Shown: positions 11,178 to 44,875 of the stretch, one piece after another
How the letters are laid out: each line of letters begins with the position of its first letter
Position numbering within the stretch: position 1 is the first letter of the stretch
IMG/VR virus record: IMGVR_UViG_3300044940_000530
Location: 1 to 56,641 of that record
Direction: 5' to 3' (one strand)
DNA length: 56,641 nt
Origin: a virus
Notes under the pieces: generated by a model
Database searches by the model: none
The model's input: only the letters and a program-made list of their open reading frames with translations
Told to the model about the DNA's origin: nothing
Program-made: the position numbers and the translations under genes

Positions 11178-11182
11178 GAAGA

Positions 11183-11344
11183 TTACCTCTTCTTCGGCTT
11201 CCGCGCCGTCTTGGCGGATTCGATGAAATCCTGCGCGGTGGGCGCGCCTTTGGTGCCCGGCTTACGCATGGTTTCGCCGCTTCCTGCTGCGATTCGACGG
11301 CGTTTCGCGTGGATGTTGGCATAAAGCCCAGGACGCTTGCTCAT
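11183..11344 (-). CDS. Small basic phage protein (MSKRPGLYANIHAKRRRI family)
   Basis: 53 residues. I chose ATG 11344, one base after the upstream stop, because the conserved start MSKRPGLYANIHAKRRRIA begins there; upstream in-frame codons look non-coding. It is strongly basic, ending TARKPKKR. Short proteins of this kind ('GLYANIhaKRkRI..GSGE.MRKPGtKGAPTa..F..SAKTAKK') recur in many phages, next to structural genes. Function unknown; a DNA-contacting virion component is possible. Confidence 0.7.
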   Translation of the reverse strand: MSKRPGLYANIHAKRRRIAAGSGETMRKPGTKGAPTAQDFIESAKTARKPKKR

Positions 11345-11345
11345 G

Positions 11346-11594
11346 TCAGCACTTCCACGCCCGGAGGCTCTTGTTGATGCGGCTGTTGGGATCATTGGCG
11401 GTCTTGGCGCTGGTCAGCTTCGCCTTCATTCCCTTCATGCGCGCGCAGAAAGAATCCCTGCGCGGACCGCCCTCGGGTTGCGGAGGTTTGAGATTTCCCC
11501 CCGTCGCGCGGTTGTAGGCAGCCCGCCCCTTGGCGTTCAACCCACCGTTCGGGTCCTTATGCTCTGCCCTGAAGTCGAAACGTTTCTTGCTCAC
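11346..11594 (-). CDS. Small conserved phage protein (probably DUF6321-like)
   Basis: 82 residues from a GTG start at 11594, chosen because GGAGG lies six bases upstream and the GTGA overlaps the holin stop; a longer in-frame version would lie inside the holin gene. Conserved features are NGGLNAKGRAAYNRATGGNL, the RRDSFCARMKGMKAKLTSAK block and the C-terminal SRINKSLRAWKC. I recall this pattern as DUF6321, frequent in marine phages; the name should be verified. Role unknown. Confidence 0.7.
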   Translation of the reverse strand: MSKKRFDFRAEHKDPNGGLNAKGRAAYNRATGGNLKPPQPEGGPRRDSFCARMKGMKAKLTSAKTANDPNSRINKSLRAWKC

Positions 11595-11917
11595 TTGGGG
11601 CCTCCCTGATCCAGTTTCGATTTCCAACGCTCGATGACGAAAACAAACGTCGCATCTATGAACTTGCCGCCACCGATGCTGGTGATGACGATGACGGCGA
11701 TACCCATCTGCGAATCGGGCGGAATCGACAGATATTCAGCAACACCCGCGCCCATAAGCCCGAGAGGGATACCAACCGCCAACTCCCATGCCGCCTCCCA
11801 ACCCCGTTTCCGTGGGTTTGAATGCGCCAGGGTATAGAAGCGCCCGAGGATTCCGAAGAGTCCGGCAGCGGCGATGGAAGCCGGATCAGCATCGGGGGGC
11901 GTGGACGACAACGGCAT
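11591..11917 (-). CDS. Holin-like membrane protein
   Basis: 108 residues, ATG at 11917 after AGGAG. Three hydrophobic stretches: about 15-30, 44-64 (ELAVGIPLGLMGAGVAEYLS) and 72-95 (GIAVIVITSIGGGKFIDATF), with a charged C-terminus (ERWKSKLDQGGPK). The 'W-E-x-A-V-G-I-P-L-G-L-x-G' and 'IDA' pattern resembles class III-type phage holins such as the LydA group. It would time lysis by forming inner-membrane lesions. No endolysin gene is adjacent, which is odd. Confidence 0.6.
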   Translation of the reverse strand: MPLSSTPPDADPASIAAAGLFGILGRFYTLAHSNPRKRGWEAAWELAVGIPLGLMGAGVAEYLSIPPDSQMGIAVIVITSIGGGKFIDATFVFVIERWKSKLDQGGPK

Positions 11918-11963
11918 GGCAAGCTCCTGTGCATCACCCCCCGATGCGAGACCATAGCACGCC

Positions 11964-12332
11964 TCAGGAAGTAACCGCGATGCCTACCGTTAATGATCCA
12001 ACGGCGATGGTAACGGGCGAACCCGGCCCGAGTGTCACGGCGTTCACGAGCGGCCCCACCCATATGCAGGAACCTCCCGTGATCGTAGTGAACAGCCCGG
12101 CATGGGTCAGCCCGGAGAAAGCCACCGTCGTCGCAGGGACCGTCACCTCAGCGGCGTTCGTTCCACTCGCGCCTGTCACTGTCAGGCTGACGCTCACTCG
12201 CGTATATGAACCTCCGGAAGGTTCGCCGATCAGTCCTGCGGAATCCTTTCCGGTCCCCAACCCGAGGAAGTATGGACCGCTAACAGCCGCCATTGCCTGT
12301 GCGGCACCGGTCGTAGTCAAGTAGCTTGCCAT
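11964..12332 (-). CDS. Probable tail or receptor-associated structural protein
   Basis: 122 residues, ATG at 12332. Gly/Thr/Ser-rich and beta-rich, with SGPYFLGLGTGKDSAGLIGE, SYTRVSVSLT and a late 'AFSGLTHAGLF'. The layout is like the protein at 8509-8943 and like small phage proteins that follow tail fibres. No helix-rich region, signal or catalytic motif. Function inferred from composition and from lying just after the esterase-like gene. Confidence 0.5.
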   Translation of the reverse strand: MASYLTTTGAAQAMAAVSGPYFLGLGTGKDSAGLIGEPSGGSYTRVSVSLTVTGASGTNAAEVTVPATTVAFSGLTHAGLFTTITGGSCIWVGPLVNAVTLGPGSPVTIAVGSLTVGIAVTS

Positions 12333-12353
12333 GTTGGGGACCTTTCAGAAGGT

Positions 12354-13553
12354 TCAGGGGGTTTCGACGACCGCGCCAAACTGATTCGGCGCAGCGAAAA
12401 GCGGAATGTCGGAACCGGTGCAATCTTCCGCAGCATCGGTCACGGAAGGTGTATTGCCGGGGTCCGCCCAGATCGCGTTCGCAAGCGCCCCTCGTGGCGG
12501 TGTGGTGCCATTCACGAACTCGCTGTAACCACCCATACCCGCCCAGAACTGAAGCCGCGCACCGGGCGTCACTCCCGACACACTCAACGTGAGGGTCGCA
12601 TAACCCGTGGTCGCTACATTCGCGTTGTTGAACGCGCCCGCCTGATTCGTGATCGATCCCGCCGTCACCGTGAAACCGCCGCTCCCCTGTCTGCGCAACG
12701 GCAGGCGCGCGGGCGACACGAAACGCGCCACCAGCGTTGTCGGATTCGTCAGAGTCGCGGATACGAGCCGTGGCTGTCCGCGCGTCGGCGGAATGACCCC
12801 GTTACGGAGCGCAATGGCTGTGGCGACGGCGCGAGCAAAACGATAAGACGCGCTGCGGATCGGATGCACGAAGTCGGGCGAGCCGTTGATATACGCCCCG
12901 CGCGGAGTGAATGGCGTGGCATGGACAGGGGGCATGCAGAACGAAAGTTGGTTCGCGCCCGCGAACGGACGCCCCGCGCCGCCGATTGCTTCGAAGATTC
13001 GTCGCATGCCGCCGAGTCGGGCTGCCACATCCGCCCCACCATCGCGCGCGCCGGGCACCAGTGTCAGGATTCTGAACTCGCCGAAGGACGATGCGACGGC
13101 ATCGTTGATGGCCGTATAGTAACCCGTCACCGATGTGGCATACAAGGAATCGGTGTAAGACGCAGAGCTTGCGTCCTGAGTCTGCGACCAGTGAATGAAC
13201 ACCCCGAGCCTGGACGCATTGGCGAATGTAAGCATGTGCTCGCGCTGCGCGATGCCATGCACGTCGAGCGCGTTGTTCGTGTCATGCCAGAACGCATCGC
13301 TCCCGCCGTTGAGCGAGCGAACCAACGCGGTCCCCCCTACGGCGGTGTATGTTTGCGGTCCCGGCCCCGATACCGCGCTCACTGTAACGGTCACGCCCGG
13401 CATCCACGTTTCGAGGAGTGTCTTCATATGCACCCCGGCGGTGGGAAGGGACGCCATGGGATCGTCCACTGTCTCGCCCCCACCCCCGGCCGCCATAAGG
13501 GCTTGGCTTTGACCGTTGAACGTCACGGCGATGCTGCTGAATCGCGCGCTCAT
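12354..13553 (-). CDS. SGNH/SASA-type carbohydrate esterase-like virion protein
   Basis: 399 residues, ATG at 13553, two bases after the stop of the spike gene. The N-terminus has NGQSQALM with Ser16 in the GQS context used by SASA/CE6-type SGNH esterases. VFIHWSQTQDASS (about 118-130) fits the later oxyanion block, and PDFVHP gives Asp227-x-x-His230, the usual acid-base pair. So the three catalytic positions are present. After about residue 255 a beta-rich domain follows. The likely role is de-O-acetylation of capsule or cell-surface glycan, together with the neighbouring glycosidase-like spike. Sequence identity to known esterases cannot be judged here. Confidence 0.65.
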   Translation of the reverse strand: MSARFSSIAVTFNGQSQALMAAGGGGETVDDPMASLPTAGVHMKTLLETWMPGVTVTVSAVSGPGPQTYTAVGGTALVRSLNGGSDAFWHDTNNALDVHGIAQREHMLTFANASRLGVFIHWSQTQDASSASYTDSLYATSVTGYYTAINDAVASSFGEFRILTLVPGARDGGADVAARLGGMRRIFEAIGGAGRPFAGANQLSFCMPPVHATPFTPRGAYINGSPDFVHPIRSASYRFARAVATAIALRNGVIPPTRGQPRLVSATLTNPTTLVARFVSPARLPLRRQGSGGFTVTAGSITNQAGAFNNANVATTGYATLTLSVSGVTPGARLQFWAGMGGYSEFVNGTTPPRGALANAIWADPGNTPSVTDAAEDCTGSDIPLFAAPNQFGAVVETP

Positions 13554-13555
13554 TG

Positions 13556-16102
13556 TCAGACCCTCGACAGAAGGTAGTTGAGATTCGCTTCAAGCACGCC
13601 ATCAGACGTGGGCGGAGCGAGATCGACGATGACTTCCCGCAACTCCCAGTTGCCCATGCCGCCCGTAGGATCGTAGAGAGCGCGGCCGATGCGGGCGCGT
13701 GGGTTGTTGGCGGACGTGCTCCATGTGCGAGCCGTGTTTCCGTCCACACTCTCCATGGTGGTGAAGTTCCCGCCCGCTGCCGACTTCACGCGGAGACGCG
13801 GAAGGTTATCGCTCGTGTTGGGCGTCGTCCGGTCGTCGTTGAAGACGAAGGCGATGGCGTGCCACACGTTTGCAACAACCGTCCCTGTCGTAGCCGCCAC
13901 AGTGACGGCGGTTCCAGAAGCACGCCAAGAACGAATCACACCGCTGCTGAGGACACACACGGCAACGCCGTTGCGTTCGTCGGCAAACGTGTTGTGCTGC
14001 GTGCCGCCGGAGAAGAGATAAGTCCGCCACGTCGGGACAGTGAGGAACCGGAACGTCATATATACGACGCCTCGCTGGCCCGAGTTTGGCGCGTTCCCAA
14101 GAAGCTGCGCCAACGTGCCGCTACCCGTCCCCGTAGCGAGGAAGTCCCCATTTTCGTCAGTTTGCGAATCCGAAGCAAACGAAATGGTTCCCGTGGACGT
14201 GCTGTGAGATGGCTGATTCGCCGCAGTGTTCTGAATCAGCGAGCGCGTCGCGGGACTCAACGAAGCAAACGACGACACGGCCCCGTTGGCTGTCGTCACG
14301 CTCGCCGCAGTGTTGGCGTCATGGATGTGAAGCGGGTCGTTCAACACCATGCCCGCAACCGTGGACGCGAGCGCGAAGAAGGTGCTCTCGTTCTGCCAAT
14401 CGATTGCGGTGCTTTCGCCACCACCTTGGACTGGCTGAACCGGCGAAGTTGGCTGCGAAGTCGCGATGCCCGTGCCCAAGCTGTTCTGACCCTGAACCCG
14501 CACCTCCATGGCCGCCCCCTGGTCGGCGACCGTAAGCGTGTAAGTCGCCGCCGTAGCCCCCGGCACGGCCACACCCGCGCGAAGCCACTGGAAGGTATAG
14601 GTGATCGGCGCACGACCCGCCCACGTTCCTGTGGAGGCGGTCAACGTCTGCCCCACCTGCGCTGTTCCTGTGATGGTCGGGAGAGTCTCGTTGATCGGGC
14701 GCTCGTCAACGACCGGGAGCATGTTGGAGAACCACGTAAACGTGTTCGAGGCCCACGTTCCGAGCGGGCGCGCGGCTGCTCCCGTGCCATACGTCACCGC
14801 CCAATACGTAGGCCCGATACCACGATTCGCACGCAGCCAATCCCTGTGCGTGATCAGCAGGTTGCGCCGCGTCACGGAATTGGCGTTATCGGTGGTGAAC
14901 CGGTCGAACTCCGCGACAAAGAACGGTCTGCCCGTCGCCGTTGACCACGCCACCGCGTTCGCCCAGGCAGAAGCCGGATTCATGGAATCCGTATAAAGGT
15001 GCGCCTTGTAGAGAACCCCGGTATCGAGCGTGGGCACGATCTGCGCCAAAGAACCGACAGACGAGAAGTTGGCACCCCCGGCCACGATGACGCGCGTCGG
15101 TGTCACGGCGCGCATCAAGGCCAGGAACTCCTCCCGGATGGGGCGATCCGTCGCCTCGCGTGCCGCGTCGTTGGCACCCAACGCAACGGATTCGTTCTGC
15201 CATTCCAACGCGAGACGGCGTTGCGGGTCGTTGATGTTCTGCTGGATGTGCGCGCACCACGACTGGCACAAGAGGTATAACCCGGCCCATCCGTAGTTGT
15301 TGCGGTTCGCCGCACCGTAAGGGTTGCCCCCTTGCGTCGTCGCAAAGTCCCAGAGGTTCTTCCCGAAGGGGGTGACGATGACATACATCCCCGCGTCGAG
15401 CGCGTTCTGGATCGATGCATACCAGTTGGTGCCGCGCGTATTGAGGTTGCGCCACACGCACAACATCGCGCCGCCGTTGGTCAACGTCACGGTCTGGTCC
15501 GCGCTGCGAGTGCCGGTGCCTCGGATTCTGACGAATCTATCCGGCCCCGAACCGCCAACGCTCGATACGTTATAGACCTGCCCGCGCGTTATCGTGATCC
15601 CCCCGATGGTTTGCGTCGCAGGCCCATCCCACCGCAGCACGACAGGATCGCCGACAACCGGATTCCATATGGGGTGATTGCCGATGCTCACCTCATCGGG
15701 AGCAAGCGCTGCGGAGGTCGCGATGGACGACACCGACCGCATGAACTCGAAGTTGTTGTTCGGGTCGAACACCTCGGCGAAGTTGCGAACCAGCCGGACA
15801 CCGCGCGCATACTGCTCATCGAAGTGCGCGCGGGGAATAATCCCGTTGGTGGTCACAGACCCAGGGATATAGAACGAATACCTCTCGTAGTTGAGCGCCC
15901 CCGCAGCCGACGCGGCGAGAAACGCCGGAATCATCGCCGCAGCGTTCCCCGCAGGCGGAATCGGGGTCCTGCCGAACGCCTGCGCGAGCGCGAACTGCGT
16001 ATCGACAGGAATCAGTGAATCCTCACCACGCTCGTAGGCGGTGATTCCAGCGGAATCAATACCGTCTCGAAACCTGCGAGCGCGCTGCGACCGTGTGACC
16101 AT
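13556..16102 (-). CDS. Tail spike with GH5-like glycosidase, Ig-like and LamG-like domains
   Basis: 848 residues, ATG at 16102 with AGGAG nine bases upstream. An N-terminal segment of about 45 residues (MVTRSQRARRFRDGIDSAG...) is shared with the next gene and probably attaches to the virion. Residues about 70-450 look like a clan-A TIM-barrel glycosidase: EWQNES gives candidate acid/base Glu304, AHLY gives His368 and Tyr370, and FFVAEFD gives candidate nucleophile Glu398. An Ig-like domain follows (about 468-550, TITGTAQVGQTLTASTGTWA), and the C-terminal 200 residues resemble a concanavalin/LamG fold (ARIGRALYDPTGGMGNWELR). Probably degrades host surface polysaccharide; the substrate is not predictable. 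Confidence 0.72.
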   Translation of the reverse strand: MVTRSQRARRFRDGIDSAGITAYERGEDSLIPVDTQFALAQAFGRTPIPPAGNAAAMIPAFLAASAAGALNYERYSFYIPGSVTTNGIIPRAHFDEQYARGVRLVRNFAEVFDPNNNFEFMRSVSSIATSAALAPDEVSIGNHPIWNPVVGDPVVLRWDGPATQTIGGITITRGQVYNVSSVGGSGPDRFVRIRGTGTRSADQTVTLTNGGAMLCVWRNLNTRGTNWYASIQNALDAGMYVIVTPFGKNLWDFATTQGGNPYGAANRNNYGWAGLYLLCQSWCAHIQQNINDPQRRLALEWQNESVALGANDAAREATDRPIREEFLALMRAVTPTRVIVAGGANFSSVGSLAQIVPTLDTGVLYKAHLYTDSMNPASAWANAVAWSTATGRPFFVAEFDRFTTDNANSVTRRNLLITHRDWLRANRGIGPTYWAVTYGTGAAARPLGTWASNTFTWFSNMLPVVDERPINETLPTITGTAQVGQTLTASTGTWAGRAPITYTFQWLRAGVAVPGATAATYTLTVADQGAAMEVRVQGQNSLGTGIATSQPTSPVQPVQGGGESTAIDWQNESTFFALASTVAGMVLNDPLHIHDANTAASVTTANGAVSSFASLSPATRSLIQNTAANQPSHSTSTGTISFASDSQTDENGDFLATGTGSGTLAQLLGNAPNSGQRGVVYMTFRFLTVPTWRTYLFSGGTQHNTFADERNGVAVCVLSSGVIRSWRASGTAVTVAATTGTVVANVWHAIAFVFNDDRTTPNTSDNLPRLRVKSAAGGNFTTMESVDGNTARTWSTSANNPRARIGRALYDPTGGMGNWELREVIVDLAPPTSDGVLEANLNYLLSRV

Positions 16103-16123
16103 GACGAGAACTCCTGTTCTGGG

Positions 16124-16552
16124 TCAGGCCGCAAGCACCGCTGCCGTGGGTGCGCTGTCCACACTGACCGCACCCGCAATATTCGTGCCAGTCACTCGAA
16201 AACGCAGCACTTGACCCACATCAGCCGGGACAGGGGAATACGTAAGCGCCGACGCCCGGAGAATCGGCACCGTTCCACGGAGCCAAACACCCGTCAGAAC
16301 CACCCGCGCACCCGTCCATGTGCCGAACGTTGCAGTCAGGGTAGCCCCTACCTGCGCCGTGCCCGTGATGGTTGGGAGAGCGGTGTTCACCGGAAGGGTG
16401 ACGGCGGCGGGCATCGTGTTGGGCCGCACCACCCGCGCGCGGGTGCGCTGTTCAGCGGGGGCGATCCGCGAACGCTCGTCGTTCTCATACGCGGTGAGGA
16501 ACGAAGAATCGATTCCTTTCTCGTAGCGGAGTCGGCGTTGTGAGCGCGGCAT
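16124..16552 (-). CDS. Short spike paralogue: shared N-terminal anchor plus Ig-like domain
   Basis: 142 residues, ATG at 16552 after GGAGGAAT. Its first about 45 residues (MPRSQRRLRYEKGIDSSFLT, then AYEND) match the anchor of the neighbouring 848-residue spike (RSQRARRFRDGIDSAGITAYERGEDS). The rest is one Ig-like domain (TITGTAQVGATLTATFGTWT) that also matches the spike's Ig-like domain. The catalytic barrel is absent. It could be a remnant of duplication, an adaptor on which other spikes assemble, or a competitor for the same attachment site. Confidence 0.65.
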   Translation of the reverse strand: MPRSQRRLRYEKGIDSSFLTAYENDERSRIAPAEQRTRARVVRPNTMPAAVTLPVNTALPTITGTAQVGATLTATFGTWTGARVVLTGVWLRGTVPILRASALTYSPVPADVGQVLRFRVTGTNIAGAVSVDSAPTAAVLAA

Positions 16553-16608
16553 GGGATTCCTCCTATGGAGCGTCGGGGTCGGGGGCGAGAATCACAGCGT
16601 GCTCCTCG

Positions 16609-17091
16609 TCATAAGGCAGCCGCCGTTTGAAACAGCGCATCCATTTGCTCGGCAGTGGCGAGTTGCGCATTGATGATCGCCTGAACCAGCGGATGCGACC
16701 GTTCAACCCGCGTCATGGTGGCCCAGGTAATACGCGCGGCAAGCGCCTGCTCTCCGGGCAGTTGCGCGAACACCGCGTCGATGGCAGCAGGCACATCGCC
16801 CGTCCTGGCCGCTGCCAGCGCCTCGGCCTCGGTGATCAGCCCCGCTTGCGCCAGCGCAATCAACAGTTGGCGACGCGAAATAATATCAGGAACAGCCAAC
16901 GGTGGCGACGGTGGCGGCGGATTCTCAACCCCCTCCTGAACCGGCTCAGGTTCCAACGGAACATCAATATTGCGAGCGGCTCTTGCGACTTCTGCGAACA
17001 ACGGATCGGTAGGCACAACGTGATAAGGCCAGTTATTGTCTGTTAGAATTACAAACGAGCCGTCCAAACGACGATAAAGAAGATTCCACAT
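16609..17091 (-). CDS. Tail fibre-associated protein (possible assembly factor)
   Basis: 160 residues. ATG 17091 shares a base with the stop of the fibre gene (TGATG); the longer open frame upstream is Cys-rich and overlaps the fibre gene, so it is rejected. The N-terminus (MWNLLYRRLDGSFVILTDNN) is followed by a Pro-rich linker and a helical C-terminus: ISRRQLLIALAQAGLITEAE, then ARTGDVPAAID and LPGEQALAARITWATMTRVE. This helical module recurs at the end of phage tail fibre or fibre-assembly proteins. A chaperone or fibre-tip accessory role is likely. Confidence 0.6.
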   Translation of the reverse strand: MWNLLYRRLDGSFVILTDNNWPYHVVPTDPLFAEVARAARNIDVPLEPEPVQEGVENPPPPSPPLAVPDIISRRQLLIALAQAGLITEAEALAAARTGDVPAAIDAVFAQLPGEQALAARITWATMTRVERSHPLVQAIINAQLATAEQMDALFQTAAAL

Positions 17092-18110
17092 CACGCAATC
17101 CTCCAAGCAAAACCAATCCATGATGGTGTTCCAGTAGCATTTGGTGGAGCAGACCCAAAAGCAGTCCCTCCGGCTGCAATCAAAACAGATGGAGAGTAAA
17201 GTGATGGTGGAACTCTCTCGCTGTTGCCATCCTGAGTAGGAACAAAATGCTCTAACCTCCAAACAAAACGAAAAACAAACCACGTTCCGCCTGATGGTAG
17301 TGTATAGGACGAACCTTGTATCACCACAACCTGCCCGACACCATTGGGTGATTGCGGCATTGGCGCGCGGGTTGAGATTTGCGCGCTAACATTCGTCACC
17401 TGCGTGTCCACATACGCCTTGCGTGTGGCGTGGTTCGGATTAGTAGGATCTGAACCGGGCAAAGTCAGTTGGCCCGTCATCGGCACCGAACCATCCGGTC
17501 TGACCAAAGACGCCGCAGCAATAGCTTGCGCGGTCCTCAATGGCGTCATCAACTTGTCCGGGTTCGTGCCCGCCTCGGCTTCGGTAAGCGTCGCAAGCCG
17601 CGCTGTTGTCTGCTCATACCCCCGAACAGGCGTGAGAAACAGTGTGTTGTCAGTCGGAGGAAGCAACTGAACGGCGGCCGTAGGTGTCGGCGTCAGGCGT
17701 TCGGTCAACGCCACGACATCAGAGATCGGATGCGTGTGCAGAAGCGGCGCGCGACTCGCCAGCGCGGCATCGAGTCCGACTATTTGCGCCGTCGTATGCG
17801 TGTGTCCCTGCTGCACGAAAGCATCGAAACACCCCGCCGTGATCCGCATGGTGACAGAAGAACCCGCCGTCCACGTCTGCGCCGACGTATCCTCGCGGCC
17901 GCGAACAACCGTCAGCACATCGCCCGTGCGGGCGGTGCAATGCATGATCTCGAACGCCGCGCCGTTCTGCACGGTGATGATGAAATACTGCCCCGGCGAA
18001 GGATTCGGAAAACGCGAACCTTCTCCGGGCGGCAGATTTACCGTGTTGTCCGTGATGAGAATCCCGGACGCCAGCGTGGAGACGACGTTGTTGCGGAAAA
18101 GGATTGTCAT
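17091..18110 (-). CDS. Tail fibre protein
   Basis: 339 residues. ATG 18110 overlaps the adaptor stop by four bases (ATGA), and MTILFRNNVVSTLASGILIT is a sensible fibre N-terminus; the upstream extension is antisense-like and omitted. Repeats of the fibre type are visible: GHTHTTAQIVGLDAAL, LHTHPISDVVAL, and the DGSVPMTGQLTLPGSDPTNP segment ('MTGxLxLpGdP...H', seen in phage fibres). The C-terminal domain is beta-rich (TWFVFRFVWRLEHFVPT). It would bind a host receptor or carry the spikes. Confidence 0.75.
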   Translation of the reverse strand: MTILFRNNVVSTLASGILITDNTVNLPPGEGSRFPNPSPGQYFIITVQNGAAFEIMHCTARTGDVLTVVRGREDTSAQTWTAGSSVTMRITAGCFDAFVQQGHTHTTAQIVGLDAALASRAPLLHTHPISDVVALTERLTPTPTAAVQLLPPTDNTLFLTPVRGYEQTTARLATLTEAEAGTNPDKLMTPLRTAQAIAAASLVRPDGSVPMTGQLTLPGSDPTNPNHATRKAYVDTQVTNVSAQISTRAPMPQSPNGVGQVVVIQGSSYTLPSGGTWFVFRFVWRLEHFVPTQDGNSERVPPSLYSPSVLIAAGGTAFGSAPPNATGTPSWIGFAWRIA

Positions 18111-21918: not shown

Positions 21919-24306
21919 TCACATGCCGGAGACCTGCTGTTGCAGATTCACGCGCGGCCCCCTGTCGCGTGGACCTGTTCCTTCGCCGCCCATCTGCGTC
22001 CCTTGGGCGATCCTGGCGGCTTCCTCGGGAGCTTCGGCGGGAATGTCCTCGGGTGCGCCGGGTGCGCCGGGTGCGCCGGGTGCGCCGGGTGCGCCGGGTG
22101 CGCCGGGTGCGCCGGGTGCGCCGGGTGCGCCGGGTGCGCCGAAAGCGGCCTGACTGCGAGCCGCTTCGTCGCGGGCACGAAGCTCCTCGTCGGACGGCAC
22201 GATCTCATGGTCCCCAAGCCCGACATGCTCCATGACCTTCCGCAACACGGCACCACGGCCGCGCAGACCCATGATCGAAACATCCAGCGGATTCGCAGTA
22301 GCCTGAAGAATCTCGACCTGCCGCTGGCGCTCCGTCTCCTTCTGAATCGCGACGTTGACCCCGCGCACCTCGATTGTCTCGTCCCCGCGCAAGGTCTTGC
22401 CCTTGTCGGTCAGCATCAGCATGTCGTAGAGCGCCGTCAGCACAGGCTCGATGATGTCGCTGTCGATATTGGCGGCGACGGTTTGAAGAATCTTGGTGGC
22501 GTTGCCCATGAGCATCGCCAGACCCGACGCGGTGCGTCCGGCACCGCCCAGACGCTCCGAACCTGTGATGTAGCGAGGAATCGCAGACAGTTCGTCGGCG
22601 ATCTGCGTGAACTTCTCGTAGACCCCGAGCAGCACTTGGGCGTTCGAGTTGGGCTGGAAGAAGTCCACAGGCGGCGGCTCGCTCGCTCGCGGCGGGCGTG
22701 TCGGGTCCGCACGCACGCGCCAGCGTTTCCAAGGATAGAGCGAATCCGCATCCTCGATGGCCGCAAGCCGGTCGATGTCCACGACAACCTGCGGCCCGGA
22801 CGACATGGAGAGGTTGTTGACAAGCGCACGCAACGCCGCGTTGGCCACATCCTGCACATCGCTGAGGATGTCGGGCAGCGCGTTGCCCAACACCGTCCCC
22901 GGTGCCTTCTCGAAGCTCGTAATATAATAAGGATGCCGCTTGCGCGGGGACGGCAGCATCTGCACCTTGATCACGTAGCGCCCGACCATCCAGACCTGCA
23001 CCGCATAGTCGGTATCGGGATCGGGAACCTGCTTCCTGGACATGCCGTAATCCAGAAGCATCGACCCCTGCACGGACCCCGTGAACTCAAGCATGTCGAT
23101 CACGCCTGATTCGTTGTGCGTGGGGTTCTCGCGGCTTTCGAGATCGGCCTGTTCCTGATCCACCCCAAGGGCGATCTCGGTGTAACCGGTCCGCCCGTAA
23201 TCCCTGAGCACGCTGCGCAGCGCGTCCTCGTTGTATCCCGGAACGCCGATCAAGGCGTTGAGATCGGCACGGGTGAGGCGGGACCGCTCGATGATGTTGG
23301 CCTGCGCGATATCGCTCACCCCCGGCGTCCACCAGAGATCGAACGGCGACACGCGCTGCCAGAACATCTTGGGCTTGAACGTCGATTCGACGGTCTTGTT
23401 GCCCGGCGGCCCGACCCACGACACAACCAGGGTGTTGCGCACCACAGGCCCCTTGATACACGCGAACGGAAACAGCGGCAGATCGGTGAGGAACTCCGCC
23501 AGCGCCCTGTAGAACCCACCCTCCACCAGAATGTCATCGAGCCGGGCCTGCGCACGGGCCGCCTCGTCGGCGGCGGCGCGTTTCTGCGCACGCTCCGCCT
23601 CCATCACAAGCTGCCGCCTGCGGCTGGCGATCTCCTCTTCGGCGGGGGGCGACCCCGCGAGCGCGGCGGACGCCGATTCCGCAACAATCAACGAATCAAT
23701 GTTCGCGATGATATCATCCGGCATCGTCGGGTGCGGGGTCGGCAGCAGCGCCCACGGACGCTGCGCGTTGAGATAGATGTCGCGCAGCAACGCGGTCGCG
23801 CCGCGACACTTGACGGCGACGAGGCGGGCGAAGATTTCGGAGCCGCCGAACTCGCGGATTTCGGCAAGCGTGCGGGAATCATACTGACCATTGAACATCC
23901 GCAAGGCATTGATAAGACGGTCGTTCCACCCGGTAGCTGATTCCCTGTGGCGCTTCATCATCTCGAACTGCGAACGCACATACGCCGCCAGATTCGATTC
24001 CGTCTCTTCATTCAGCGACAGTTCAGGAATCACATTCGGCGCAGCGGCGTCGCGCGTCGTCTCGGCGGGCGTGGCGATTCGCAGCAACCCTCCCCGGTCG
24101 GACGGCCCCATGACCGGCTGCGCACCGCCACCCTGCGGACCGGGGGGAACCGCTCCGGCGGAAAACGCAGGCATCGCGGAAGGAACGGAAGGGACGGGGG
24201 GAATGGAAGGGACGGGGGGGATGGAGGGAACGGAAGAAACGGGCGCTGGCCCGCCCACCCCAGGAATCGCTCCTCGCTGACCGGGAAACAGGACAGGCTC
24301 GACCAC
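21919..24306 (-). CDS. Portal protein
   Basis: About 795 residues from a GTG at 24306, chosen because AGGAG is seven bases upstream; the longer frame would overlap the divergent terminase gene. A Pro/Ser-rich N-terminus contains VPSIPPVPSIPPVPS repeats (24181-24240). The core has SQFEMMKRHRESATGWNDRL, MPDDIIANIDSLI, SPFDLWWTPGVSDIAQANII, 'VGRYVIKVQMLPSPRKRHPY' and ITGSERLGGAGRTASGLAML, the recognisable portal region of P22/N4-like podoviruses. The C-terminus carries about nine GAP triplets (plus strand 22056-22140). It forms the dodecameric DNA channel. Confidence 0.85.
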   Translation of the reverse strand: MVEPVLFPGQRGAIPGVGGPAPVSSVPSIPPVPSIPPVPSVPSAMPAFSAGAVPPGPQGGGAQPVMGPSDRGGLLRIATPAETTRDAAAPNVIPELSLNEETESNLAAYVRSQFEMMKRHRESATGWNDRLINALRMFNGQYDSRTLAEIREFGGSEIFARLVAVKCRGATALLRDIYLNAQRPWALLPTPHPTMPDDIIANIDSLIVAESASAALAGSPPAEEEIASRRRQLVMEAERAQKRAAADEAARAQARLDDILVEGGFYRALAEFLTDLPLFPFACIKGPVVRNTLVVSWVGPPGNKTVESTFKPKMFWQRVSPFDLWWTPGVSDIAQANIIERSRLTRADLNALIGVPGYNEDALRSVLRDYGRTGYTEIALGVDQEQADLESRENPTHNESGVIDMLEFTGSVQGSMLLDYGMSRKQVPDPDTDYAVQVWMVGRYVIKVQMLPSPRKRHPYYITSFEKAPGTVLGNALPDILSDVQDVANAALRALVNNLSMSSGPQVVVDIDRLAAIEDADSLYPWKRWRVRADPTRPPRASEPPPVDFFQPNSNAQVLLGVYEKFTQIADELSAIPRYITGSERLGGAGRTASGLAMLMGNATKILQTVAANIDSDIIEPVLTALYDMLMLTDKGKTLRGDETIEVRGVNVAIQKETERQRQVEILQATANPLDVSIMGLRGRGAVLRKVMEHVGLGDHEIVPSDEELRARDEAARSQAAFGAPGAPGAPGAPGAPGAPGAPGAPGAPGAPEDIPAEAPEEAARIAQGTQMGGEGTGPRDRGPRVNLQQQVSGM

Positions 24307-26676: not shown

Positions 26677-27294
26677 CTAGTCCTCCGATTCCGCCCTGTC
26701 AAGAAGCTCGTCGGCGGAAACCATCGCCTGCGGCACGCCGGAATCCAACGGTTCGACAGGAACCGCCGCCGTCAACGTCACCTTCCTGCGCTTCCTGCGC
26801 GGCAGCGGGCGGGCGACAATGGCGTGCCTGTCGGGTTTACCGGGCCTGTCGGACTTCGGGGATTTCGGGGATTTCGGGGACTTCGCGGAGGCGACGGGAC
26901 CGACGACCTTCCCGGCACGGACGCGATCCTCGCGCTCGGGGTCGCCCGCGAGCACCGTAGTGAACCCCTCACCAAGCAGCCCATGCAGCCCCAGCTTGCG
27001 GAAATGCCCCTCATGCTCGGCAGCGGCCTTGGCGATGGCCCGCTCGGATGGATTCGTGGGAACGGTGCTCATGGAACACTGGCGAATCACATATGAACGA
27101 TTCACCCCCAGCTTCGCGGCGATCTCCTCGGTCGGCACGCGAGCCTTGGCCATGGCGTTGATCAGCACCAACCGGGCGACGTGGAACACGGGAGACACAC
27201 GCGGCTTGGACCGTGCCGACACGACACCGTTGTTCGTCCTGTCGGCACGAACGGGCTTGGAATCCTTCGGAACGAAGGAGGATTTTCTGCTCAT
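26677..27294 (-). CDS. Helix-turn-helix regulatory-type protein
   Basis: 205 residues. ATG 27294 has AGAGGA upstream; the TTG 18 bases earlier is unlikely. A helix-turn-helix is visible at about 50-72 (VPTEEIAAKLGVNRSYVIRQ). The region after 110 is basic with four KSP repeats, and RPLPRRKRRK; the C-terminus is acidic. It is the only leftward gene between two rightward blocks, with its own promoter-like site and terminator, as expected of an autonomous regulator. A DNA-packaging or partition role cannot be excluded. Confidence 0.6.
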   Translation of the reverse strand: MSRKSSFVPKDSKPVRADRTNNGVVSARSKPRVSPVFHVARLVLINAMAKARVPTEEIAAKLGVNRSYVIRQCSMSTVPTNPSERAIAKAAAEHEGHFRKLGLHGLLGEGFTTVLAGDPEREDRVRAGKVVGPVASAKSPKSPKSPKSDRPGKPDRHAIVARPLPRRKRRKVTLTAAVPVEPLDSGVPQAMVSADELLDRAESED

Positions 27295-29139: not shown

Positions 29140-29256
29140 GTGCCTGCTGTGCCTGCTGTGCCTGCTGTGCCTGCTGTGCCTGCTGTGCCTGCTGTGCCTG
29201 CTGTGCCTGCTGTGCCTGCTGTGCCTGCTGTGCCTGCTGTGCCTGCTGTGCCTGCC
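29140..29256. repeat. Non-coding 9-bp tandem array (TGCCTGCTG), about 13 copies
   Basis: Starting just after a terminator, TGCCTGCTG repeats perfectly about 13 times and ends in a variant copy near 29256. Both strands can be read as long low-complexity frames, but no start site or homology suggests a gene. Probably a slipped-strand expansion; a role as spacer or binding array is possible. Confidence 0.85.
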
Positions 29257-29949: not shown

Positions 29950-31086
29950 ATGGCTGACATGATCCCCGGTATGACGAATCAGGCCGTGGAGGCGTTCCTT
30001 GCGCGCGCCGCCAATATCGGCGCAAACGCCAAGGTTCTGGAATCCGAGGCAAAGGCGCAAGTTGACGCCGATGCCAAGGCAGCGGCTGATGCGCGCGACT
30101 TGCTGCGGGATTCCAAGCGCCGCGCGGCCGGTTTCCGCCGCCCCGCGTTCCGTGCGCTTGGCGAGGTCGCGGCCGCTTTCCAATCGGCGAGCAACAACTT
30201 GGACTCTGTTCCGGAGACGTTCCGTGAGTCGGTCGCTTCGCGGGCGGCGCAGGCCTTCGCTGCGAGCTACACCGGCCGCAGCGAGAAGTCCGCCAAGGGC
30301 GGGGTTGCGGCGGGCTGGACTCACGTGATCTATCTCGGCAGCGCAGGCCAGACTCTGATCAACGCACTCGCCGAGCGAGTCGATCACTGGCAGGCCATCG
30401 CTGATCTTCCTATCAATGACGAAGGCGCGGCCGCGCTGCGCGAAACGGCGCTGCGCTACGTCACTCCGGCCGCGTCCTGTCCGGCCCCTGACGGGCGGAT
30501 CGAGCCGGGCAAGTTGCCCAAGCACAACGGCCGCGCGGCCGTGACACTGACCGTGGACGGCAAGACCGTGTCGCTGCCCGCGCGTGGCGCTACCAATCGC
30601 GACGCTATCCTTGCGGAAGCGGCCCGTTTGGCGCGCACGCACGGTATTGAGGTTGCGACGCATCCCTTTGTGCTTGACGCGGTGTTAGACAACGGCGGGA
30701 AGTGGCGCAAGCCCGAGGGTGACGCACAGGCGCTCGCGGCCGATGCGCTTTCCGCGCTCGACAAGTTGCTTTCCTTGGGCGGCGCGGAGTCGCTTGACGG
30801 CGCATCGCTCATGGTGATGCGTGACGTTATTCACCGCATTGCGCAGCAAGGATTGCGTGAGCGTCCCATGGTGGTGCCTGAGGTCGCCAACACGCCGATT
30901 TTGGCCGCACCACAGGCCATGCCGGAGAACGTTTCCGGCAGCGCACTGACGGTCACTGCCGAGAATGAGGCCGATTTGAACGAATCCGATTCGTGCAACG
31001 CATCGAACAGTGACGATTCTTCTCCGAACAAGGAATCCAAGAAGGGCAAAAAGCCTAGCAATATCAAGCGGAAGCCCGGTATCTGA
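29950..31086 (+). CDS. Hypothetical early protein, 378 residues
   Basis: ATG at 29950 follows AGGAAAGG. The upstream in-frame extension lies in the structured leader and is dropped. N-terminal 60 residues are helical and Ala-rich. The middle has TVDGKTVSLPARGATNRDAI, and HPFVLDAVLDNGGKWRK. The C-terminus is acidic then basic (NESDSCNASNSDDSSPNKES, KKGKKPSNIKRKPGI). No known domain recognised; a nucleic-acid or protein-binding role is possible. Followed by a strong hairpin. Long leader suggests post-transcriptional control. Confidence 0.65.
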   Translation: MADMIPGMTNQAVEAFLARAANIGANAKVLESEAKAQVDADAKAAADARDLLRDSKRRAAGFRRPAFRALGEVAAAFQSASNNLDSVPETFRESVASRAAQAFAASYTGRSEKSAKGGVAAGWTHVIYLGSAGQTLINALAERVDHWQAIADLPINDEGAAALRETALRYVTPAASCPAPDGRIEPGKLPKHNGRAAVTLTVDGKTVSLPARGATNRDAILAEAARLARTHGIEVATHPFVLDAVLDNGGKWRKPEGDAQALAADALSALDKLLSLGGAESLDGASLMVMRDVIHRIAQQGLRERPMVVPEVANTPILAAPQAMPENVSGSALTVTAENEADLNESDSCNASNSDDSSPNKESKKGKKPSNIKRKPGI

Positions 31087-31093
31087 CACTGAC

Positions 31094-31116
31094 GCGGGGG
31101 GCGCAACGCCCCCCGC
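31094..31116 (+). terminator. GC hairpin after the 378-residue gene
   Basis: GCGGGGGGCG (31094-31103) pairs with CGCCCCCCGC (31107-31116) around CAA. No T-run, so termination strength is uncertain; it may instead shield the transcript. Confidence 0.6.
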
Positions 31117-31418
31117 GCATTCGTTTGTGCATTTTGAGCGTTTAAACCCCTGAATCGTTGCGCGTGTGCGCATTATTTTTTGTTGCGCTATCACCCGTCG
31201 CAACAGAATGCGGCGCAAATTGTGGCAAATTGTGGCAAAGCGTCATCGCGCAGCGTTACATTTCGTAACATCGGCACGCGCGAAGCGGGCGTTTGCGGCT
31301 GATACGCGCCTCAACAACATGTTCCGTAGCCGTTCTAACCCTATTCTCTACAACCTACGGTAGCGATAAGGGTAACAATATTGCGCGCAAGGGGGGTGTT
31401 TGCGCAAACTTGCAGGGG

Positions 31419-31737
31419 GTGTGAATTAGGTGTGAATTAAAGTGTGAATTGTTCGGCACGCAGGCGCAAGGAAAAACATAAGGATATCAATAGGTTAACA
31501 TATATAGGTATATAAGGTAATATTATATTAGTCATATTCACACCCCTCCAAAGGAGGCGCCGTAGCGATTTTTTCGTGTTTCCGGCTGCGGCGCCTGCTG
31601 CCGTCCCCCCGCGCGCGCCTCCTCAAAAAAAGGGTGTGAATATGACTAATATGCAAAAAACCTAGGAAACTCTAGGACTCCAACCCCGTTCTGTGCAGTA
31701 ATCGTAACGGTGAATATGTGTGAATATGTGTGAATTA
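31419..31737. repeat. GTGTGAATTA/GTGTGAATAT repeats
   Basis: Direct copies start at 31419, 31430, 31442, 31718 and 31728, spaced 10-12 bp where clustered. Further copies form the arms of the inverted repeat at 31525-31652. TGTGAATAT differs from a reverse DnaA box (TGTGGATAA) at two positions, so DnaA binding is conceivable but unproven. Confidence 0.7.
31525..31652. repeat. 21-bp inverted repeat flanking a GC hairpin
   Basis: 31525-31545 (ATATTAGTCATATTCACACC plus C) and 31632-31652 are perfect inverted copies. Between them GGCGCCG (31555-31561) can pair with CGGCGCC about 25 bases on. The arms include the GTGTGAAT unit. Both arms together could form a cruciform of about 128 bp. Confidence 0.75.
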
Positions 31738-31801
31738 GAAAGCGCAACAATACGGAACACGTAACAAAACACACGATTAGGAATCCAATCCACGATTCTA
31801 T

Positions 31802-32034
31802 GAATCAGATTCGTAAAATAAGATTCATACAACGAATCAGATTCGCAAAACAAGATTCATACAATGCATCAGATTCGTTGAATCATGAGCACCCAAGGAA
31901 TCAGATTCCTGGATTGAATCATTAATGAAGAATCCGATTCCTGAAACGCACTCAAACACCGAATCCGATTCTTCAAACGCGCACATTATGAGAATCAAAT
32001 ACCTCTGATTCGGATAAACCGACGAATCAGATTC
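31802..32034. repeat. Array of GAATC-N-GATTC palindromes with 31-32 bp period
   Basis: Perfect 11-bp palindromes start at 31802, 31834, 31898, 31930, 31961 and 32024. Degenerate copies at 31866 (GCATCAGATTC) and a half site at 31992 fill the two gaps, so eight positions fall on one 31-32 bp grid, three helical turns. Each palindrome has two GANTC sites. Candidate binding array for a replication, segregation or methylation-sensing protein. Confidence 0.8.
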
Positions 32035-32143
32035 GCACTATGCACCGCATGACGACTCTGCGAATCAAACATTGCGCTGCAGGATTCGTCATGCGCTTTA
32101 CGCGCAACCCCTAACCCCTAACCCCTAACCCAAGGAGCAACCC

Positions 32144-33238: not shown

Positions 33239-34753
33239 ATGACCACGGCCATCGACACCAACGCCATCCCCGCCATCTCCATTGCCGAGTTGCTCGCCGT
33301 CTCCCCCGTGCTGGAACAGTGGCGCAACAGCAAGGGGCGCATCATGCCCCTCCACCTCCAATCCGCTCCCGGCATCGGCAAGACCGCCTTCGTCTCCGAG
33401 ATGGCGCGCCGCCGTGCCGCGCTTGCCGAGGGTCCGCGTGGCGAGCCTGTCGTCGTCGGGTTCACCGTGGTGAACGCGTCCATGGTGTCCCCGCCGGACA
33501 TTCCCGGCTTCATCCTGTTTGATTCGCAGGAGTTTGCCGAATCCGAGCGCGACGACGAGGGCGCGATCCTGCCCCATGCCGTCAGGCGCTATCACGCGAA
33601 GGTCGCGCGCTACACCCGCCCCACCGTGTTCAACCTCTCCGGCGCGTTCGTGCGTGCCGTCGATCCCGCGACTGGCGAGCCGTATCCCGCCGGTCCCGAC
33701 GCGCCGACCGTGTTCATCGACCGCGACGACGCGGGCGGGCCGGTCATGATCGGATCGCTTGTGCGGGGGCGGCCCGTGGATACGGGCATCATGCTGCTGG
33801 ACGAGTTCATGCAGGCTCCCACCGATATCGCCAAGGCGTTCGCGCCGCTCATCGACGAGGGGCGTGCCGGTCCGCACCATCTGCCCATCGATTGGCAGGT
33901 GATCGCTGCGTCCAACCGGCAGCGCGATGCCTCTGGTGTGGGCCGTGCGTTGGCGTTCCTCACCAACCGCTGGATGCTCGCCGAGTTGCAGCCCGACATG
34001 GGTGCGCTGCTCGCGCATCTGACGGGCAGGGCGCATGGCGGGCAGGACGCGCGTGCCAACCCACACGTCAACCCGTATGGGGGGATCATGACGCCCACCG
34101 TGCTGCCTGCCATTGATCGTTATGGGCGCATCGACCGCTCCCGTCAGCCCATCCATCCCGCCATCGAAAAGTGGCTGGACACCAACGCCGATACCCTGTT
34201 CGGCGGCGTGCCGTCCGATCCGGGCAAGCCGTTCCTCACGCCGCGCTCCGCCGAGGCCGCGTCCAACCTCTTCGACGTGATGCTGCGGCTCGACCTCGAC
34301 GAGGACTTCCAGGCGTCCGATTCGTCGGAGTCCAACTACAGCGAGACGTTCATCGCCCGCGACGACGATCCCGCGCGATTCAGCATGTTCTCCCGCCTCG
34401 CTGCCGGTGCCGTTGGTGCCGACAACGCCGCGCAGATGCTCGGCACGCTTGAGTTGTTCGGCGAGGTGCCGACCTATGCCGCCATCGTGCGTGACCCCAA
34501 GCGCGCGCACGTCTCCGAGAAGGCCGACGCGCAGGTCGTGACGGGGATCGTCATCAGCCGCCACATGACGCCCGCCACCGCCGATGCCGCCATCGCCTAC
34601 GCCAAGCGCCTGCAGCCGCACATCGGTCGCAACGCCATCGTGTCCGCCGTGCGCGCCAACCCGTTGCTCATGGGGTGCCCTGCCGTGCTGGCGTGGGCGC
34701 AGGCCAACCCCGATGCGATGAATCGCCTGATGATGGTGGCGGCGCGGCGGTGA
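33239..34753 (+). CDS. MoxR-type AAA+ ATPase
   Basis: 504 residues, ATG at 33239 after AGAAGGA. Walker A SAPGIGKTA (42-50, Lys48), Walker B GIMLLDEF (183-190, Asp188-Glu189) and sensor 1 VIAASNRQRD (Asn226) are clear. MoxR-family ATPases act as chaperones with von Willebrand A partners, and a VWA-type protein is encoded two genes on. The C-terminus from about 340 holds no known motif. In phages such a pair is uncommon in my knowledge. Likely remodels or activates a host or phage complex. Confidence 0.85.
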   Translation: MTTAIDTNAIPAISIAELLAVSPVLEQWRNSKGRIMPLHLQSAPGIGKTAFVSEMARRRAALAEGPRGEPVVVGFTVVNASMVSPPDIPGFILFDSQEFAESERDDEGAILPHAVRRYHAKVARYTRPTVFNLSGAFVRAVDPATGEPYPAGPDAPTVFIDRDDAGGPVMIGSLVRGRPVDTGIMLLDEFMQAPTDIAKAFAPLIDEGRAGPHHLPIDWQVIAASNRQRDASGVGRALAFLTNRWMLAELQPDMGALLAHLTGRAHGGQDARANPHVNPYGGIMTPTVLPAIDRYGRIDRSRQPIHPAIEKWLDTNADTLFGGVPSDPGKPFLTPRSAEAASNLFDVMLRLDLDEDFQASDSSESNYSETFIARDDDPARFSMFSRLAAGAVGADNAAQMLGTLELFGEVPTYAAIVRDPKRAHVSEKADAQVVTGIVISRHMTPATADAAIAYAKRLQPHIGRNAIVSAVRANPLLMGCPAVLAWAQANPDAMNRLMMVAARR

Positions 34754-34800
34754 TTCTCCATGCAGTTGCGAATCGGATCAAACACACGAAGGAGAGACAG

Positions 34801-35055
34801 ATGAGCTACAACTTCCAGGGTGTTCTCTACAACACCAGCAAGGACGCGCTTGAGGCAATCGCGGTCGCCTGGGTCTACGGCGGGGCTGAGCGCCCCTACC
34901 ACGATACGTTGAAGGAGGCACCGGCCAAGCTGGCTGCCGAGTGTGTCCAGGCATGGGGGCTTCGTGCCCTGCTCGCCGAAATGGGCGAGAACGAGGCGGC
35001 GCTCGCCGGAGCGATTGAGGAAATCCTGTTCCGTGCGTTGGCGGTGCTCGACTGA
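34801..35055 (+). CDS. Small hypothetical protein, 84 residues
   Basis: ATG at 34801 with AAGGAGAG eight bases upstream. Helical, slightly acidic: DALEAIAVAWVYGGAERPYH and ECVQAWGLRALLAEMGENEA. The segment VQAWGLRALLAEMG resembles other small phage helical proteins, but no function is known. It sits inside the MoxR/VWA cassette. Confidence 0.6.
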   Translation: MSYNFQGVLYNTSKDALEAIAVAWVYGGAERPYHDTLKEAPAKLAAECVQAWGLRALLAEMGENEAALAGAIEEILFRALAVLD

Positions 35056-44227: not shown

Positions 44228-44875
44228 ATGATTCGCGATAAGGGCGGAATCGGATCGAAGATGGCGGGCGGCAACCCCCATCCCGACCGAGGGCGCGAGA
44301 CGGACGACTTCTACGCCACCCCTCACGCGGTGACGGAGGCGCTGGTCCTCGAATACCGGCGGCTGTTCCATTATGCGCATGTCTGCGACCCCTGTGCCGG
44401 GGATGGCGCGATGGTCGATTCCATTATCAAGACCTCGCGCATGTGCGGCATGCCGGTGGCCGGTGTTCATGCGTCGGACATCGCGCCGCGTGCGGAGTCG
44501 ATCCATCGGATGGACGTATTCGATCTCACGCGCGACATGCTCGCCGCGAAGGACATTCATATCGTGGTGACGAATCCGCCTTTCAGTCTTGCCCCCGATA
44601 TCATCCACCATATCGGCACGGTCGCGGGGGTGGAGAAGCCGGTCGAAGAGCGATACCCCCTGGTGTTCGCGCTCGTGTTGAAATCGACGTTCTGGCAAGC
44701 CGCGCGCAGGGAGGCGCTGTTCCGGCGCTGGCCGCCGTTCGTGCTTCATCCGTTGCTATGGCGGCCCGATTTCAAGTCCCTCGGTGCGCCGACGATGGAG
44801 ATCATGTGGTGCGTGTGGATTTCGACACGGTTTGGCGCGCCCACTGGTTATGTTCCGCTGAAACGCCCAGGGTGA
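44228..44875 (+). CDS. DNA adenine methyltransferase-like protein
   Basis: 215 residues, ATG at 44228. DDFYATP (26-32), DPCAGDG (54-60, AdoMet-binding motif I) and TNPPF (115-119, catalytic motif IV) are visible. NPPF/Y suggests amino-methyl transfer to adenine (or cytosine N4). No restriction gene accompanies it, so it looks like an orphan methylase for DNA protection or regulation. A TTGACT...TAGAAT-like site lies upstream at 44170 with long spacing. Recognition sequence unknown; see the GAWTC finding. Confidence 0.75.
   Translation: MIRDKGGIGSKMAGGNPHPDRGRETDDFYATPHAVTEALVLEYRRLFHYAHVCDPCAGDGAMVDSIIKTSRMCGMPVAGVHASDIAPRAESIHRMDVFDLTRDMLAAKDIHIVVTNPPFSLAPDIIHHIGTVAGVEKPVEERYPLVFALVLKSTFWQAARREALFRRWPPFVLHPLLWRPDFKSLGAPTMEIMWCVWISTRFGAPTGYVPLKRPG

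Follow-up and report, generated by a model that had tools for sequence, protein, structure and literature searches.

matS sites are dispersed palindromes, found every tens of kilobases, on which the small, dimeric, DNA-bridging protein MatP organises a genome domain. The methylase CcrM recognises GANTC, a symmetric sequence in which the middle base can be any nucleotide. SeqA recognises hemimethylated GATC, also symmetric, and its binding in vitro requires paired sites that lie on the same face of the DNA, separated by two to three helical turns (PMC5145175). The sopC region of the F plasmid has twelve 43-bp repeats and ten 16-bp inverted repeats, to which ParB dimers bind specifically (PMC6238139). 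The stoperators of mycobacteriophages L5 and Bxb1 are 13-bp sites that are asymmetric, mainly intergenic and oriented in the direction of transcription, and their sequence varies between clades (PMC3029335). DNA uptake enhancing sequences are short words over-represented both in and between genes; they are evenly spaced, which was at one time taken to point to replication, repair or compaction as their role (PMC1939737).

We analysed a 56,641-bp stretch of viral DNA (IMG/VR record IMGVR_UViG_3300044940_000530, positions 1 to 56,641; hereafter the window), in which an array of palindromes lies in a gap between genes. The GC content of the gap is 46%, compared with 62% for the genome.

31087 to 32143, no strand: gap of 1,057 bp, AT-rich, without genes, upstream of the rightward replication genes
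31802 to 32034, no strand: phased array of six perfect GAATCNGATTC palindromes, one copy with one mismatch and one broken copy
31781 to 32087, no strand: half-site cluster, with 23 GAATC/GATTC vs 1.9 expected at the genome's own density

The perfect palindromes (GAATCNGATTC, i.e. GAATC-N-GATTC) start at 31802, 31834, 31898, 31930, 31961 and 32024. The copy at 31866 (GCATCAGATTC) carries one mismatch, and the copy at 31992 (GAATCAAATAC) is broken, with one half-site intact and a GATTC 15 bp further on, at 32007. Start-to-start spacings are 32, 32, 32, 32, 31, 31 and 32 bp; the mean of ~31.7 bp corresponds to about three turns of 10.5 bp, thus placing the palindromes on one face of the helix. 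None of 300 random placements of six sites was equally well phased. Across the whole window there are 14 matches to GAATCNGATTC with at most one mismatch, against 2.5 expected, and positions 31640-32143 contain 23 GAATC/GATTC, against 2.2 in dinucleotide shuffles (maximum 7). The half-site density of the array is also extreme relative to the raised GAWTC density of its own genome (P ~1e-17). The preliminary description had proposed six perfect palindromes plus one degenerate and one half site, on a 31-32 bp grid of three helical turns and in a gene-free setting; exact positions, shuffles, random placements and the lack of any called gene in 31087-32143 bear this out. Its inventory was right as far as the array is concerned, but overlooked the half-sites in the spacers, a further palindrome at 30982 and the pairs found across the genome.

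The palindromes are 89% alike and the spacers 39% (36% for spacers 3-7), compared with 29% for random sequence, a contrast that is somewhat inflated because the copies were chosen for their likeness. This suggests that the sites have been kept or constrained while the intervening DNA has drifted. A degraded coding repeat, in which GAATCNGATTC would correspond to Glu-Ser-Asp-Ser, was considered and rejected: no called gene lies over the array, and spacings of 31 and 32 bp are not multiples of three. AA/TT periodicity of 10.5 bp is weak in the array spacers, being matched by 17 of 500 shuffles, and searches for RNA and tRNA elements gave neither an Rfam nor a tRNA match. Other repeats in the window are a TGTGGG microsatellite of 56 copies (2041-2376) and similar long 9-bp repeats at 22050-22141 and 29140-29255.

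The array half-site also recurs throughout the genome, as inverted pairs.

195 to 56641, no strand: 66 dispersed inverted pairs, the first at 195 and the last starting at 56603

Outside the array, these 66 pairs comprise GAYTC-N12-GARTC (10), GAYTC-N13-GARTC (26), GAYTC-N14-GARTC (12), GAYTC-N3-GARTC (11) and GAYTC-N4-GARTC (7). The N12-14 pairs thus number 48, where ~2.4 are expected (P 6e-45), and the N3-4 pairs 18, where 1.6 are expected (P 1e-13). All other spacings up to 39 have 0-3 pairs each, as does the reverse orientation (counted with the middle base free); for N13, GAYTC...GARTC occurs 26 times and its reverse once. GAATC is the most enriched 5-mer of the window genome, and GAATC and GATTC lie far above synonymous-codon shuffles (z = 14 and 17, respectively), with enrichment in all three frames; GACTC/GAGTC are not enriched in the window phage and are down relative to the same kind of shuffle. 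Within genes there are 34 N12-14 pairs, where shuffles have 5.0 on average and 8 at most, and this null is conservative, since synonymous shuffles keep the protein sequence, which is itself shaped by the sites.

The 48 long pairs are on average ~1,200 bp apart (minimum 218, maximum 2,523 bp), with a coefficient of variation of 0.50 vs 0.97 for random sites; none of 5,000 random sets was as evenly spaced. Wholly intragenic pairs make up 49 of 62, 26 of them in genes on the plus strand and 23 in genes on the minus strand, in all frames; given this placement, promoters, terminators and ordinary stoperators fail as an explanation. Pair density is 0.87 per kb in the window and at most ~0.018 per kb in 58 alphaproteobacterial genomes (~50-fold or more rarer), making a general host binder of that class unlikely. 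A reading of the pairs as hairpins was dropped, as there is no evident extended complementarity. Unpaired half-sites have only a slight excess of degenerate partners, so many single GAWTC are left without explanation.

The array, built of N1 palindromes separated by N20-21, does not share the geometry of the dispersed pairs. Its spacers hold additional half-sites, and standard inverted pairs are found both within it and at its right edge.

31794 to 31806, no strand: pair within the array, GATTC-N3-GAATC
31872 to 31884, no strand: pair within the array, GATTC-N3-GAATC
32007 to 32028, no strand: pair within the array, GATTC-N12-GAATC
32054 to 32066, no strand: right-edge pair, GACTC-N3-GAATC

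Read from the sequence, the same half-site, GAYTC, is used in the array and in the ~66 evenly spaced pairs across the genome.

The gap is flanked by leftward structural genes, a rightward terminase and a rightward replication block encoding an AAA ATPase, a VWA protein, family A DNA polymerase, a RecB-like nuclease, VRR-NUC, SNF2 and a DUF927 primase-helicase; the names RecB-like and VRR-NUC, for which there was no family match, are taken from the annotation of a Rhizobium phage relative. In one related locus (L025), the matches to the polymerase (10001-12742) and to SNF2 (15395-17908) are split by ~0.9 kb, as by inteins or introns, and the polymerase match is also split in L029. Besides the array, the gap and its left border carry the following features.

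30982 to 30992, no strand: extra perfect GAATCCGATTC, in the end of the 29950-31086 gene
31420 to 31450, plus strand: three TGTGAATT direct repeats, 11-12 bp apart
31535 (minus strand), 31635, 31719 and 31729: further TGTGAATW copies
31476 to 31545, no strand: AT-rich stretch, a possible unwinding element by direct reading
31525 to 31652, no strand: 21-bp perfect inverted repeat, with arms at 31525-31545 and 31632-31652

The GAATCCGATTC palindrome at 30982 is followed by GATTC-N13-GAATC at 31015. A syntenic AT-rich gap is also present in relatives whose terminases are 44-55% identical, and in several of them it holds repeats of its own. An element shared by three gaps (TGAGCRCCCAAG) was set aside as too short and possibly start-codon context, and comparison of the gap DNA with plasmids and phages gave nothing meaningful. 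The gap, AT-rich and beside the replication genes, is here regarded as probably origin-like.

Pattern scans of other viral contigs found no other phased array. Five other viral contigs have two perfect palindromes at a distance of 29-34 bp, and the pattern matches inspected (L044, L045-L048) are repeats coding for Ser, Glu and Asp, with spacings of 30, 33 or 34 bp. Among 36 whole records of relatives, GAATCNGATTC is present in one, as a single copy. In bacteria, searched with one genome per species, a palindrome pair with 31/32-bp spacing was found in two cases, both in promoter regions (L144:5695-5736 and L143:4720-4762, with two GAATCNGATTC each, 31-32 bp apart). The nearby regulator genes, whose families were assigned by reading the sequence, are IclR-type in Bosea and, upstream of the pair, TetR-type in Desulfobacterales. 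These bacterial pairs are probably regulator operators, and their location in promoters near regulators implies that such palindromes are usually sites for HTH dimers.

GAYTC pairs occur at 0.8-1.1 per kb in four related contigs (L063, L064, L065 and L073) and at no more than 0.12 per kb in the remaining ~155 loci. Without the window, the four contigs have 36 N13, 8 N12, 9 N14, 7 N3 and 4 N4 pairs, the same profile as in the window. L063 is the only clade contig besides the window in which the gap is covered; two GACTC-N4-GAGTC lie at its edges but there is no array, and the array may thus be peculiar to the window phage. Two proteins of the window have the same, or nearly the same, distribution as the pairs.

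26677 to 27294, minus strand: HTH candidate binder, 205 aa, with a homeodomain-like HTH and a disordered basic tail
29950 to 31086, plus strand: second candidate binder or initiator, 378 aa, adjoining the gap

Among the fetched loci, homologues of the HTH protein are found only in pair-bearing contigs (5 of 5, including the window). A search of viral contigs with the HTH alignment alone returned three further contigs (L262, L263 and L264), all with pairs and raised GANTC: two of ~6 kb each have 2 and 4 N13 pairs, and the third has 15 N12-14 pairs in 14 kb. In total, seven other contigs carry both a homologue and pairs, and no other contig with a homologue was found. The three further contigs are not fully independent, as by terminase L262 and L263 are near-copies of L063, and L264 of L064. 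All eight clade contigs fall on one branch of the terminase tree (support 98/88), where the window is the deepest and most divergent member, with a terminase 55% identical at best. The clade is thus monophyletic, and its members have kept the rule by which half-sites are paired. The association between HTH protein and pairs is strong, yet it comes from a single clade, so that common descent alone could explain it. The preliminary description had looked to relatives for the palindrome and its spacing, and had pointed to the HTH protein as a possible binder. The array is absent where the gap can be read, and what is kept across the clade is the half-site and the pairing rule; the HTH protein stands as the candidate, with homologues in exactly the contigs that carry pairs.

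In a structural model of the HTH protein with an overall mean pLDDT of 53, helices are placed at residues 35-50, 55-62 and 66-74 (pLDDT ~80). The tail is rich in Lys, Arg, Pro and Ala, is disordered in the model, and has a net charge of +12 over residues 118-180. HTH_23 matches all five homologues, the best with an E value of 0.00035 and the window protein below the curated cut-off, and there is a weak match to KorB in two of the five (E value 0.016). No match was found among 50,697 named phages, and a fold search with the model gave no significant match, generic HTH proteins appearing at E values of 0.2 or worse. The 29950-31086 protein has no family match; its homologues are found only in clade contigs L063, L064 and L065, a distribution nearly that of the HTH protein. 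The window also encodes a methyltransferase-like protein with an NPPF motif (44228-44875, plus strand), for which no homologue was found in the fetched relatives.

Sister phages carry a different inverted motif. TTAC-N6-8-GTAA exceeds 0.3 per kb in 42 loci, some of them overlapping, including the cultured Rhizobium phage RHph_TM3_14A, in whose 60,889 bp the motif is present 46 times and GANTC is entirely lacking. The motif occurs about once per kilobase, inside and between genes (L009, L155, L149, L178, L202, L011 and ~36 others), and its spacing is more even than random in L202, L178, L011 and L149. The nearest parallel to the array is a cluster of GTTAC-N8-GTAAC in the syntenic AT-rich gap of another relative (L247:2771-3330, record G012). 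Repeated inverted words of their own in L095, L249, L043, L165 and L250 (ACTAC/GTAGT, ACACA/TGTGT, GAACC/GGTTC, TTACG/CGTAA and TTACA/TGTAA) hint at further versions. A winged-HTH-like protein of RHph_TM3_14A (34609-34968, plus strand) has matches in 8 of the TTAC-bearing loci but none in loci free of TTAC, which offers a lead to a candidate reader of the sister motif. The sister phages mostly avoid GANTC. CCAGG is almost absent from RHph_TM3_14A (1 vs 53 expected; L009, whole record L009/L055/L255-L257), and several relatives avoid both GANTC and CCAGG, suggesting restriction or methylation avoidance. The same phage has a 6.9-kb relative of a very large gene, part of which lies at 52566-56519 of the window (minus strand) and encodes a HELVHA metallopeptidase-like motif; its product is possibly an ejected polyvalent protein.

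Several explanations can be set against this evidence. An iteron origin or a centromere, as first suggested for the array, is possible, although we consider it unlikely that an iteron-type initiator binds the phased palindromes and opens AT-rich DNA, with the dispersed pairs serving as titration sites. The sequence features do place tandem sites beside an AT-rich, possible unwinding region: the gap adjoins the DNA polymerase, SNF2 and primase-helicase genes, contains TGTGAATW repeats, an AT-rich stretch and the 21-bp inverted repeat, has syntenic counterparts with repeats of their own in several relatives, and is bordered by the 29950-31086 protein. However, the TGTGAATW repeats around the AT-rich stretch would be better-placed iterons than the palindromes, 66 evenly spaced sites across a genome are unusual for an initiator, the adjacent proteins have no match to a Rep family, and GC skew gives no usable origin signal. 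Distinctly less probable is an operator and stoperator system, in which a phage repressor would bind the array at the early promoter and, as in L5 and Bxb1, also dispersed sites where transcription is blocked. The array does end 110 bp before the first rightward gene, the candidate sites of the HTH protein are dispersed and differ between clades like stoperators (PMC3029335), and the two bacteria with the same palindrome pair, at 31-32 bp, have it in promoters beside regulator genes. Known stoperators, however, are asymmetric, mainly intergenic and transcription-oriented (PMC3029335), whereas here the sites are inverted pairs and 49 of 62 are intragenic; moreover, no sigma-70-like promoter was found within the array, and no integrase-like match among the proteins searched.

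A self-marking system, in which evenly spaced bound sites would shield phage DNA from the processive nucleases of the phage or its host while unmarked host or rival DNA is degraded, would account for the 2.5-kb ceiling on the gaps between pairs and for sites within genes on both strands. The phages with the two versions of the motif have the SNF2, RecB-like and VRR-NUC genes in common, and dispersed self-marks have precedents in Chi and in DNA-uptake sequences. We nevertheless hold it to be highly unlikely, as the nuclease genes are also present in relatives in which a motif of this kind was not detected, and the phased array would be left unexplained. We give very little credence to the methylation-sensing switch that had also been proposed, in which CcrM would methylate GANTC and the array would read replication or cell-cycle state, in the manner of SeqA at oriC. 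Each palindrome does contain two GANTC, the distant Rhizobium phage relatives suggest an alphaproteobacterial host, and the GATC pairs that SeqA needs in vitro are two to three helical turns apart (PMC5145175). Against it are the half-site itself, which is read asymmetrically (26 vs 1 for N13) although CcrM ignores the middle base, and GACTC/GAGTC, which are depleted in the window phage; the methyltransferase-like gene also lacks a homologue in the fetched loci.

We favour, at about even chances, a reading of the array as a dense, origin-proximal cluster of phage protein-binding sites that are found genome-wide, with an HTH binder that organises the phage chromosome. The HTH protein (26677-27294) would bind GAYTC half-sites as dimers or higher oligomers, the dispersed sites being inverted pairs 8-9 or 17-19 bp apart from centre to centre. 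The array, with ~23 half-sites in 300 bp and its palindromes on one helical face, may act as a cooperative loading site by the probable origin. From there, bridging or coating of the replicating genome would proceed through the basic tail of the protein and the dispersed pairs, the long ones being 0.2-2.5 kb apart. The phage chromosome would thereby be organised, with replication, compaction or packaging as the probable purpose. We infer the identity of the binder, its cooperativity and its organising function from sequence features, and spacing and protein composition are what suggest a DNA-organising role. Evenly spaced sites kept largely in coding genes, in a clade whose terminases are only about half identical, are strong evidence of function at the level of DNA.

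A broader proposal, to which we give somewhat less than an even chance, is that this phage family uses clade-specific, evenly spaced inverted sites (GAYTC-N13-GARTC here, TTAC-N6-8-GTAA in the sisters) as a chromosome-organising or self-marking code; in the window phage, the code would be read by an HTH protein whose tail resembles that of histone H1, with nucleation at the phased array. We found no description of a phage system of evenly spaced genome-wide inverted sites in the open-access literature. How phage DNA is organised, recognised and packaged inside the cell is poorly known for tailed phages, and this family offers a candidate pair of protein and site that is open to testing, sister clades between which specificity has switched naturally, and a motif statistic with which such systems can be found in other phages.

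Of the described systems, stoperators resemble the present sites in that dozens of copies of the site of one HTH protein (here a candidate) are distributed over a phage genome; they differ in that the sites here are inverted pairs of 5-mers at N3-4 or N12-14, mostly intragenic, on both strands and evenly spaced, with a phased array in addition. Like sopC with ParB, the array has tandem inverted repeats at a regular period, and it is a phased palindromic array near a replication region; unlike sopC, its period is ~31.7 bp rather than 43 bp, and its half-site is also found genome-wide. A search of window proteins, covering a subset of the genes, identified nothing of the ParA/ParB type. With SeqA the array shares a cluster of short sites at an origin, here a probable one, and the 31.7-bp period fits two to three turns; here, however, orientation matters, the dispersed pairs (18 bp) do not fit, and methylation is a hypothesis. 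DNA uptake sequences differ in that there is no competence system here, and the sites have a fixed inverted geometry and a candidate intracellular binder. MatP and matS share with this phage the combination of dispersed palindromes and an organising binder (here a candidate), but the phage sites occur about every kilobase and extend over the entire genome instead of one domain.
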